A stretch of DNA of 64,000 bases from Tateyamaria omphalii (GTDB lineage Bacteria > Pseudomonadota > Alphaproteobacteria > Rhodobacterales > Rhodobacteraceae). Of this stretch, positions 9,726 to 12,855 are shown in pieces. The notes beneath the pieces are model-generated. The model had not been told where the DNA came from. It did not search any database and saw only the letters and a list, made by a program, of their open reading frames with translations. The translations under genes and the position numbers were made by a program. Position 1 is the stretch's first letter. Every line of letters starts with the position of its first letter. Location of the stretch: contig NZ_BMWT01000001.1 of assembly GCF_014651375.1 (NCBI RefSeq), positions 310,001 to 374,000 on the forward strand, given 5' to 3'.

Positions 9726-10352
9726 ATGGCAGACGATCCATCCCTCGACAGCGCCTATGCGCTCGAAACACCCGAAGACTCGGTGCAGCTATATTCCGCT
9801 TGGGCAGACACCTACGACAGCGATTTTGCCCGTGTTAGTGACTATATCCTGCACGAACAGGTAGCACGTCACTTCGTGAATATCGGCGGCTTTGGCCCTG
9901 TTTTGGACGTGGGCGCGGGCACCGGCCTGTGCGGCACGGCATTGGCTGCACGCGGGGTCGAGCCGATAGACGGCACCGACATCTCGGCCGACATGCTAAA
10001 AATTGCAGCAGCCAAGGACATCTACCGCACCACGCGGGTCGAAAACATCTTTGACGGGCTGGCCACTCCAGATGGGCTGTATCAGGGGGTCGTCAGTTCC
10101 GGCACCTTCACCAAAGGGCATGTGGGTCCAGACGGGATTGATGCGGTGATCGCAGCGGTACGTCCACGCGGTTGGATCGTGCTGTCGGTAAACGCCCAGC
10201 ACTTCGCCGCATCTGGCTTCCACGAAAAACTGACTGCGTTAGAGAATGATATCGAAGGCCTCAGCCTAACCGAGGTTGCAATCTACGGCCCCAACGCAAC
10301 CGGCGATCATGCAAAGGATACAGCACTCCTGATCGCGTTCCGCCGGGTCTAG
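9726..10352 (+). CDS. class I SAM-dependent methyltransferase, 208 aa
   Basis: Seven-strand Rossmann methyltransferase. Motif I VLDVGAGTGLCG binds S-adenosylmethionine, followed by GTDISADMLKIA (motif II acid) and SGTFTKGHVGPDGIDAVIAAVRPRGW (motifs IV-V). It belongs to the general UbiE/TehB-like group; the acceptor is unknown. I used ATG 9726 (MADDPSLDSAYAL), since the earlier start at 9660 adds a low-complexity basic leader. The 3' end overlaps the convergent gene at 10349. Confidence 0.8.
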   Translation: MADDPSLDSAYALETPEDSVQLYSAWADTYDSDFARVSDYILHEQVARHFVNIGGFGPVLDVGAGTGLCGTALAARGVEPIDGTDISADMLKIAAAKDIYRTTRVENIFDGLATPDGLYQGVVSSGTFTKGHVGPDGIDAVIAAVRPRGWIVLSVNAQHFAASGFHEKLTALENDIEGLSLTEVAIYGPNATGDHAKDTALLIAFRRV

Positions 10353-10699
10353 CCCTTGTCAAAAAACGGCGTAACCTGCGCGACAATCACAGCATTCTCA
10401 TCCAAGGCCCGCTGCATCAACGCACGCTCTTCGCCCTCAATCTCATGCCCTTCGGCCAACCGCTCATCCAGCGTGCCATAGCCAGTCACATCCAGCGGCG
10501 CAGTATCCGCCTGCTTGAGCAGCGCCACCGTCTCGCGCACGGCCTCCGCCTCGTCCACACCGCTGGCAAAACACATCAACGCCGCCCCTGTCGCACCATC
10601 CGGCAGGCCATCCCCATCTTTGCGCCCAATCTGCACCAACAGGGTATAGACCTGCTGCGGTTTCTTTGGCTTGGCGGTTTTTGGTTTGGACTGCGCCAT
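10349..10699 (-). CDS. conserved hypothetical protein, 116 aa
   Basis: Begins with a lysine/proline-rich tail (MAQSKPKTAKPKKPQQ), then a compact alpha/beta domain: YTLLVQIGRKDGDGLP, a small-residue helix with ALMCFASGVDEAEAVRETVALLK, and an acidic C-terminal helix followed by VIVAQVTPFFDKG. AGGGGATC is positioned before ATG 10699, supporting that start over the longer frame. I do not recognise a named family; the regular helix/strand pattern suggests a real, soluble protein. Confidence 0.7.
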   Translation of the reverse strand: MAQSKPKTAKPKKPQQVYTLLVQIGRKDGDGLPDGATGAALMCFASGVDEAEAVRETVALLKQADTAPLDVTGYGTLDERLAEGHEIEGEERALMQRALDENAVIVAQVTPFFDKG

Positions 10700-10849
10700 G
10701 ATGATCCCCTGCTCAGACCGCAATGACCTACACCGGACAGTTGCAAAACAGAAGCAACAACAAACTGCAAATGGGCCGCACATGCGTCCCGACTTGGCGC
10801 AGCCCTGCATCTAACCTAAGCCATGGAACCAACGTTCAAAAGATGGCGG

Positions 10850-11911
10850 ATGGATATGCGCACGCTTCTTCTTTCGATCTTGATGACCCTGTGCCTGGTC
10901 TTGCCGGGGCTGGCACAGAACAGAACACTGGTCTTCGCAACCGTCGAACGACCTCCTTTCACGTTCCAGAACGAAGGTCAGGTCGACGGATTCAGTGCGG
11001 ACTTGATCCGAGCCATCGGGCGCGAGATTGGCACCGACATCTCATTCGAGATGCAATCGAGCTTCCCCGAAATGCTGCGAGAGGTCGAAGACGGCGCTGT
11101 CGACGGCGCAATCGCCAACATCTCGATCACTGGCGCACGGGAGGCGGTGATGGACTTTACCCTGCCGATCTTTCGCAGCGGGTTGCAGATCATGGTTCCC
11201 ACCGTCGACAACGCGCCCAGCTTGTGGTCCGCCATTCTCAACCGGGATCTGGGGATCGCCATCCTTGGGGCACTCGGCTTGCTGATGGTGATGGGCATGC
11301 TCATGTGGGTCTTTGAACGCAAACGGCAGCCCTATTTCGACCGCCCGCCGGGCAAGGCCATCTTCCCGGCCTTCTGGTATGCACTGAATCTGTTGGTACG
11401 GGGCGGGTCTGAACAAAATGTCCCGAAATCCGGATTTGGTCGGCTCTTTGCCGTGATCCTGGTGGTATCCGGATTGTTCATCGTTTCGTTCTTTGTCGCC
11501 AACGTGACAAGCGTGATGACAATACGGGCATTGGGTGAACGCATTGACAGTGTCAGCGATCTGGAAGGGCGCGAGGTTGCGACGACCAGCGGCTCGACCT
11601 CCAGCGAGTTTCTGGTTCAACGCGAAATTTCCCACAACACATTTGTCGACTTCAATGCCTTGCTCTGGGCGTTTGAAGACGGAGAGTTGGACGCTGTCGT
11701 CTTCGACAGTCCGGTCTTGGCCTACTACGTCAAAACCGACGGGCGCGGGAAAGCGCGCCTCGTCGACCGTGTGTTTCGGCCCGAAGACTACGGCATCGCT
11801 CTGCCTCAGGGCAGCGACTTGCGCGAACGCATCAACTTGGCACTACTGAACCTGCAGGAATCGGGTGAATATGACACCCTTTACCTGCAGTGGTTCGACC
11901 GGGGCAGTTAG
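10850..11911 (+). CDS. prokaryotic ionotropic glutamate-receptor-like ligand-gated channel, 353 aa
   Basis: Signal peptide (residues 1-22, ending GLAQ), then a periplasmic amino-acid-binding lobe S1 (28-118) with the ligand arginine in [12 protein letters not shown] (R97). Next come helix M1 (134-155), a pore-loop segment (170-192, [17 protein letters not shown]), inner helix 199-225 ending [13 protein letters not shown], and lobe S2 (230-350) with [11 protein letters not shown]. This is the S1-M1-P-M3-S2 order of GluR0-type receptors. The potassium-filter TVGYG is absent; the loop reads [18 protein letters not shown]. The inner helix matches the eukaryotic SYTANLAAFLT motif position by position. 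In-frame starts exist at 10823, 10850 and 10856; none has a strong ribosome site. Ligand and ion are unknown. Confidence 0.82.
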
Positions 11912-12735
11912 TCGCGCAACAGCTCGTTGATCGACGTCTTGGATCGGGTCTTTTCGTCGACGCGCTTCACAATCACCGCGCAATACAGGTTCACACCGTT
12001 CTTCGAAGGCATCGACCCTGCGACGACAACGGAGCCGCTTGGCACTTCACCATACATGACCTCGCCCGTCTCGCGGTCCACGATCTTGGTCGACTGGCCG
12101 ATGAACACGCCCATGCCCAGAACCGACCCCTCGCGCACGATGCAGCCCTCAACCACCTCGGACCGTGCGCCAATGAAGCAGTTGTCTTCGATGATGGTCG
12201 GCCCCGCCTGCATCGGCTCCAACACACCGCCGATGCCAACGCCGCCAGATAGGTGCACGTTCTTGCCGATCTGCGCGCAGGACCCAACGGTGGCCCACGT
12301 ATCAACCATGGTGCCCTCGTCCACATAGGCGCCCAAGTTCACAAACGACGGCATCAGCACCACGCCCGGCGCGATGAAGGCCGACTTGCGGACCACACAG
12401 TTCGGCACCGCACGGAAACCGGCGGCTTGCCACTGGTTGTCGCCCCAGCCCTTGAACTTGCTGTCGACCTTGTCCCACCAGCCGCCGCCTTGCGGGCCGC
12501 CATCCTGCTGTTCCATGTCCTTGATGCGGAAGCCCAGCAACACAGCCTTTTTCGCCCACTGGTTCACATGCCAGTCGCCGCTGTCCTGCCGCTCGGCCAC
12601 GCGCAGGGTACCACTGTCCAGCGCATTCAGCGTATCCTCGATTGCCTCGCGCGTCTCGCCCGTGGTGGCGGGCGTGATGGTGTCGCGGGCTTCCCACGCG
12701 GCTTCGATGGCAGTTTCAAGCTGAGCGTTGGACAT
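11908..12735 (-). CDS. dapD: 2,3,4,5-tetrahydropyridine-2,6-dicarboxylate N-succinyltransferase, 275 aa
   Basis: Transfers succinyl from succinyl-CoA to tetrahydrodipicolinate in lysine and meso-diaminopimelate synthesis, feeding peptidoglycan. The left-handed beta-helix is clear from hexapeptide repeats between about residues 105 and 235 ([44 protein letters not shown]). An N-terminal helical domain and the C-terminal [14 protein letters not shown] block complete the fold. ATG 12735 has GGGGAGAT upstream. The gene converges on the channel gene with a 4-bp stop overlap. Confidence 0.95.
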
Positions 12736-12855
12736 CGGAATCTCCCCTGATTGATCGCGGCGCTTAGACAACAAACCGGGAGGCCTTGCAATCATATCTG
12801 GGCAATGCCCCTATGGCACGCTACGCCTAGTCGAAGCCTGACAGGAGCAGACAGA

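Follow-up and report, generated by a model that had tools for sequence, protein, structure and literature searches.

Prokaryotic ionotropic glutamate receptors (iGluRs) without the GYG filter were named 'Group 2' by Ger et al. in 2010 and were found nearest to the human receptors among the bacterial ones; their P regions are described as not distinctively similar to those of any channel of known selectivity (PMC2950845). A survey of 2010 reported 23 prokaryotic iGluRs in 971 prokaryotic genomes (PMC2924276). The route from a K+-channel pore to the cation-conducting pore of animal glutamate receptors is an open question, and GluR0, the bacterial model that has been studied, keeps the K+ filter. 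The Q/R/N site overlaps with the filter of K+ channels (PMC3483616). Asn at this site governs the Ca2+ permeability of NMDA receptors and Arg renders receptors Ca2+-impermeable with a slight Cl- permeability; in plant GLR3.4 the filter residue Arg666 has been proposed to give a route for anions (PMC11479355). In homomeric Q/R-edited GluA2, conductance and Ca2+ permeability are reduced and PCl/PCs is 0.14 (PMC6754398).

Sequence evidence supports that one gene in the window, which is the whole analysed stretch of 64,000 nucleotides from Tateyamaria omphalii, encodes a glutamate-receptor-like protein without a K+ filter (Table 1). Its reading frame on the forward strand (10823-11911; 362 amino acids in the longest form in the ORF list of the window) has in-frame ATG codons at 10823, 10850 and 10856. 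An earlier reading of the letters alone (hereafter the sequence-only reading) had used 10850. The alignment shows that the ATG at 10856 is common to the window gene and its two nearest relatives (L002 and L003, 73% identical), and this is most likely the start. Over all searches 172 rows were kept, after ORFs shorter than 300 amino acids, rows identical to another over the last 200 residues and rows without a phmmer match at 1e-8 had been dropped. Of these 172, a few weak rows duplicate each other in truncated form, and two lack a pore loop. The 114 rows that score at least 300 bits against the window protein are called the clade below.

Table 1. Features of the receptor gene and its neighbours in the window; residue numbers are counted from the ATG at 10823.
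Feature	Position	Strand	Basis or remark
Small neighbour gene, 116 amino acids	10352..10699	-	No Pfam or NCBIfam match; marks the conserved locus
Receptor gene	10856..11911	+	ORF and start shared with L002/L003; stop codon 11909-11911
Signal-peptide-like segment, residues 12-32	10856..10918	+	Hydrophobic start and LAQ end, by eye from the sequence
S1 half of the amino-acid-binding domain, residues 33-132	10919..11218	+	Pfam SBP_bac_3 and Lig_chan-Glu_bd
R106, predicted holder of the ligand carboxylate	11138..11140	+	Arg in all 114 clade members
M1, residues 141-165, followed by basic ERKRQ	11243..11317	+	Weak AlphaFold2 model
Pore helix, residues 176-192	11348..11398	+	Weak AlphaFold2 model; Lig_chan match
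Filter segment, residues 193-203, where a K+ filter would stand	11399..11431	+	Sequence and comparison with clade loops
R193 (CGG) at the Q/R/N-site position	11399..11401	+	Alignments with GluA4, GluN1 and GluA1
M3 inner helix, residues 204-238	11432..11536	+	Weak AlphaFold2 model
S2 half, ends at residue 362	11537..11908	+	Pfam SBP_bac_3
S258, T259	11594..11599	+	Within S2; S in 113 of 114 and T in 113 of 114 clade members
D295	11705..11707	+	Within S2; D in 114 of 114 clade members
dapD	11908..12795	-	TIGR00965 over cut-off; marks the conserved locus

The Pfam models SBP_bac_3 (8.3e-25), Lig_chan (8e-13) and Lig_chan-Glu_bd (6.1e-9) matched the window protein above their cut-offs, so that the resemblance goes beyond chance; Ion_trans_2 stayed below its cut-off (5e-4). 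The first match among solved structures was 2pyy, a bacterial iGluR homologue represented by its binding core (3.5e-48); the 60 matches listed also include plant GLR3.4 (8.1e-23) and the AMPA, kainate and NMDA receptors of animals. Pfam, the alignment and the predicted structure agree that S1 and S2 flank two helices and a pore loop, which bears out the order S1-M1-P-M3-S2 given by the sequence-only reading. The amino-terminal domain and M4 of eukaryotic iGluRs are absent and the protein stops with S2. The basic stretch after M1 would fit a cytosolic loop, which would place the binding domain in the periplasm. An Arg that holds the ligand carboxylate has been described for GluR0 (PMC2950845). 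The ligand Arg in S1 noted by the sequence-only reading (then numbered R97) is indeed among the invariant residues of the clade, together with T103, E107 and, in S2, the acid D295. The AlphaFold2 model (4 sequences, mean pLDDT 62, pTM 0.37) is weak; it contains the three helices and sets R193 directly after the pore helix. Foldseek with this model ranked AMPA receptors first (4.8e-13), yet at a TM-score of 0.27 and an rmsd of 23 Å, which makes the ranking weak support only. Close homologues did not turn out to be ordinary soluble binding proteins: Lig_chan, the model with which the clade was gathered, is matched by all 46 scanned members.

The window's genome has no Lig_chan match besides the receptor gene. 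Lig_chan matches were found in 4 of 20 genomes of the genus (3 over the cut-off), in 78 of 295 genomes of the family (294 genera) and in 82 of 292 genomes drawn from the order, every matched one belonging to the same family. Draws from the class and from the phylum gave 12 of 385 and 77 of 398 genomes, and in the phylum draw only 22 passed the cut-off. Of the 82 places in the family, L140 and L144 were too weak or short to be classed. The other 80 comprise 64 members of the window's clade, which is thus present in 63 of the 295 surveyed genomes, 11 GYGD types and 5 others. A quick IQ-TREE analysis of 107 rows was run after removal of rows more than 85% identical, rows below 85 bits and the pore-loop columns, with the clade thinned further and bacterial rows only. 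The window protein grouped with L184 and L185 (95), then with L126 (99), inside the clade (99). IQ-TREE flagged one long branch (L127) and an unusual composition in 11 rows, none of them neighbours of the window protein. Compared with L185, the window gene has a dN of 0.156 and a dS of 1.16, and its membrane segment a dN of 0.165 and a dS of 1.14, with dS near saturation. The gene is under purifying selection and its membrane segment is constrained like the rest. A phage origin was rejected: when viral contigs were scanned with the clade alignment, none of the 92 pattern matches was a relative.

Several other receptors in the collection also have loops without GYG. One alphaproteobacterial genome carries four iGluR-like genes in tandem (G655:C64:4287-9400; L059, L069, L070 and L071), with loops such as NEAGDVST and SANIDEGETK. 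L143, L186, L093, L142 and L183 belong to another iGluR-like family, distinguished by a basic loop (SGRMPSRKNLFGW and similar); this family branches apart from the window's clade in the tree, and one of its members comes from a genome (G003) of the same genus as the window. Further types are FQGQGNPFEL (L172, L165), KGPFNYYEF/RGPFNYFEF (L087, L089) and TNASFTIFTP (L118, L086, L150, L177). This variety suggests that bacterial receptors have tried many filters.

The receptor gene lies between dapD and a gene without family match, the neighbours that the sequence-only reading had named. It is convergent with dapD and the two overlap at their stop codons. The 116-residue neighbour and/or dapD adjoin the receptor in 66 of 72 clade loci longer than 8 kb (the neighbour in 66, dapD in 59) and in none of 22 non-clade loci. 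The receptor stands between the small gene and dapD in the window (10349-12795), L196, L108 and L131; it stands outside the pair in L121 and others with the strands kept, a small local rearrangement. The neighbour itself, a well-kept gene without assigned function, was rejected as a functional partner because it occurs in 270 of 295 family genomes and stands beside dapD even at loci that lack the receptor (L204, L205, L208 and L210 among others). Taken together, these loci make the receptor look old, vertically kept and repeatedly lost.

Counted from the Trp of the pore helix, the pore loop of the clade mostly reads W-W-A-L-N-L-V-V-N-G-G-F-E-E-R-x-P, or NGGFEExxP in short. The GYG filter, which the sequence-only reading rightly reported as absent from the window protein, is lacking throughout the clade: the homologue search found GYGD in the loop of 0 of 114 members (such letters occur elsewhere in the ORF in 2 of 114). 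The pore and M3 texts quoted by that reading were also correct, and what it did not mention is the most specific feature of the protein, an Arg in place of Asn. At Trp+8 the clade has Asn in 109, Ser in 4 and Arg in 1 of 114 members, the single Arg being that of the window; in the per-genus family survey the counts are 62 Asn, 1 Arg and 1 Ser of 64. The codon is CGG in the window and AAC in both sisters. On the tree, Asn is likely the ancestral state of the clade at this position and Arg would have arisen on the window's own branch. In the HMMER alignments Trp+8 falls without gap on the Asn of a GluN1 construct (LLNSGLGEGAP); in GluA4 it falls on the first Gln of MQQG, with one gap following. 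The clade profile places its Asn onto the same Gln of GluA1. We take these Gln and Asn residues to be the Q/R/N site. Four residues after R193 stands an acid, E197, as it does in eukaryotic iGluR pores according to the alignment.

Overall, the window filter reads RGGSEQ against NGGFEE in the clade, and thus has one acid against two. Three positions are changed (R for N, S for F and Q for the second E), at which the clade has N in 109, F in 110 and E in 108 of 114 members; the Trp, both Gly, one Glu and the Pro of the loop are retained. The Gln in place of the second Glu is common to the window protein and both sisters, which keep the Asn. L126, next on the tree, is also off the clade pattern (ASGGFGQ). 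Ser at the Q/R/N position is found in L049, L178, L182 and L126; three of these four form one branch (99) with strongly altered loops (SSAHEE, SGDYRA and SGDYKE).

To place the clade pore between animal receptors and K+ channels, profiles of the M1-P-M3 segment were compared, with GYG-type bacterial relatives as a stand-in for GluR0. The profile of the clade (46 of 91 less redundant members) matched AMPA receptors best (3.5e-6) and K+ channels from 5.1e-5, whereas that of 24 GYG-type relatives matched K+ channels at 3.1e-14, with no glutamate receptor among the best 60 matches listed. The pore segment of the window protein alone matched GLR3.4 (1.4e-8), GluA4 (0.001), GluN1 (0.0017) and Kv4.2 (0.0082). 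With Pfam, Lig_chan matched 46 of 46 clade segments and Ion_trans_2 40 of 46 (best 2.7e-7); for the GYG-type segments both models matched 24 of 24, Ion_trans_2 at best with 2.1e-19. These comparisons show clearly that the clade pore has moved away from K+ channels; it has also come nearer to animal receptors, by a real but small step: by sequence, the clade pore appears to prefer AMPA receptors slightly over K+ channels. The claim of the sequence-only reading that the pore is closer to eukaryotic receptors than to GluR0 therefore holds in relative terms only, the gap being small. The eukaryotic-type M3 motif, which had been put forward in its favour, was rejected as evidence: 4 of 13 residues over the stretch chosen by that reading are identical to the motif (SYTANLAAF), its Asn occurs in 12 of 114 orthologues, and its Ala and Thr also occur in GYG-type relatives (26 of 27 and 24 of 27).

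We consider it somewhat more probable than otherwise that the window protein is a GYG-less prokaryotic iGluR, an amino-acid-gated homomeric channel that is not K+-selective. For a channel speak the family models, the ligand residues, M1, pore helix and M3 in the model, the clade profile, dN/dS, the conserved locus and the single copy; against it stand the weakness of the model, the small preference of the pore over K+ channels and a loop that is one residue longer than in AMPA receptors. From the gene, its domain order, its conservation, the purifying selection and the residue counts, we infer how the receptor could work. Four copies of the one subunit would build a pore like that of an upside-down K+ channel; the periplasmic S1/S2 clamshell would bind an amino acid, close and pull the M3 gate open. 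Without the K+ filter, selectivity for K+ is not to be expected, and in most of the clade the filter NGGFEE, with Asn first and two acids, would be expected to let cations pass. Since the genome has one such gene, a homotetramer with a ring of four Arg is expected in the window bacterium, in which R193 would presumably face the pore. Homomeric edited GluA2 is weak, Ca2+-poor and Cl--permeable and the window channel is expected to be likewise; by this analogy it would probably have a low conductance, pass little Ca2+ and perhaps allow some anion flow. In the cell it may serve to respond quickly to amino acids or salts outside. The only bacterial precedent that we found is the reported role of GluR0 in the control of cell volume under KCl stress (PMC13099474).

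The main rival is that the window copy no longer conducts usefully and is instead a sensor of amino acids anchored in the membrane, or a pore that is almost shut, its filter having changed because ion flow ceased to matter. The changes at three near-invariant filter positions could also mean this, the next relative L126 departs likewise, and edited GluA2 homomers are weak channels. Still, constraint is equal in the membrane segment and in the rest of the protein, the frame is intact, key residues of the loop are retained and the Gln is shared with two sisters that still have Asn. We regard lost conduction as unlikely. It is quite improbable that the altered loop keeps a K+-like filter. The clade loop does have the length of TVGYGDxxP, with Pro at Trp+16 and the clade GF on the GY of the filter, and Ion_trans_2 is weakly matched by 34 of 46 full clade proteins, but GYGD is absent from the clade loops and in the window Arg occupies the position of the filter Thr. 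Least probable is that the protein is the binding part of an amino-acid transporter, a frequent annotation of such proteins, to which SBP_bac_3 as strongest match and several GlnH-like models below cut-offs would point: the binding domain is not uninterrupted as in a soluble or lipid-anchored ABC-transporter binding protein but holds M1-P-M3 between its halves, where iGluRs have it, the Lig_chan match exceeds its cut-off, and a permease or ATPase is absent among the scanned neighbours.

A bolder extension of the channel reading is tentative and, taken as a whole, rather doubtful. Animals make the Arg of GluA2 by RNA editing; here a bacterial receptor would carry it encoded in the genome, the pore of its alphaproteobacterial clade, which has the loop length of a K+ filter and aligns to the GluN1 loop without gaps, would represent a living intermediate between the K+-channel and GluN1 patterns, and the channel would be of low conductance, Ca2+-poor and partly anion-permeable. 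The clade comprises more than 100 small receptors without the filter, mostly at a single conserved locus. At the position which in animals sets Ca2+ permeability it includes Asn, Ser and Arg forms, and these could be compared directly by electrophysiology. A bacterium of marine type carries a small relative of the glutamate receptors of nerve cells.

The class of GYG-less prokaryotic iGluRs has been known since 2010. The NGGFEE pore of the clade and the Arg form of the window appear to be new as far as the published description of Group 2 reaches; no description of either was found in the literature searched, the coverage of which was incomplete. Set against that same published description, the window protein resembles Group 2 in its S1-M1-P-M3-S2 order, its binding Arg and Asp and its lack of a K+ filter; it appears to differ by the Arg at the Q/R/N position, and the clade pore was not met in what that description covers. 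With GluR0 of Synechocystis and the GYG-type (Group 1) receptors it shares topology and binding residues, but these keep TVGYGD, and with it the strong match of GYG types to K+ channels, where the window has RGGSEQ. Plant GLR3.4 is the best solved match of the window pore segment, but counted on the alignment its Arg stands three residues past the Q/R/N position, which is occupied by Phe, and it has extra domains. To the animal AMPA, kainate and NMDA receptors the window protein is linked by a loop that aligns without gap to GluN1 and with one gap to GluA4, by an acid at +4, and by an Arg as in edited GluA2 where its clade has Asn as in NMDA receptors; it differs from them in lacking the amino-terminal domain and M4, in the poor agreement of the M3 motif and in a loop that is one residue longer than that of AMPA receptors.
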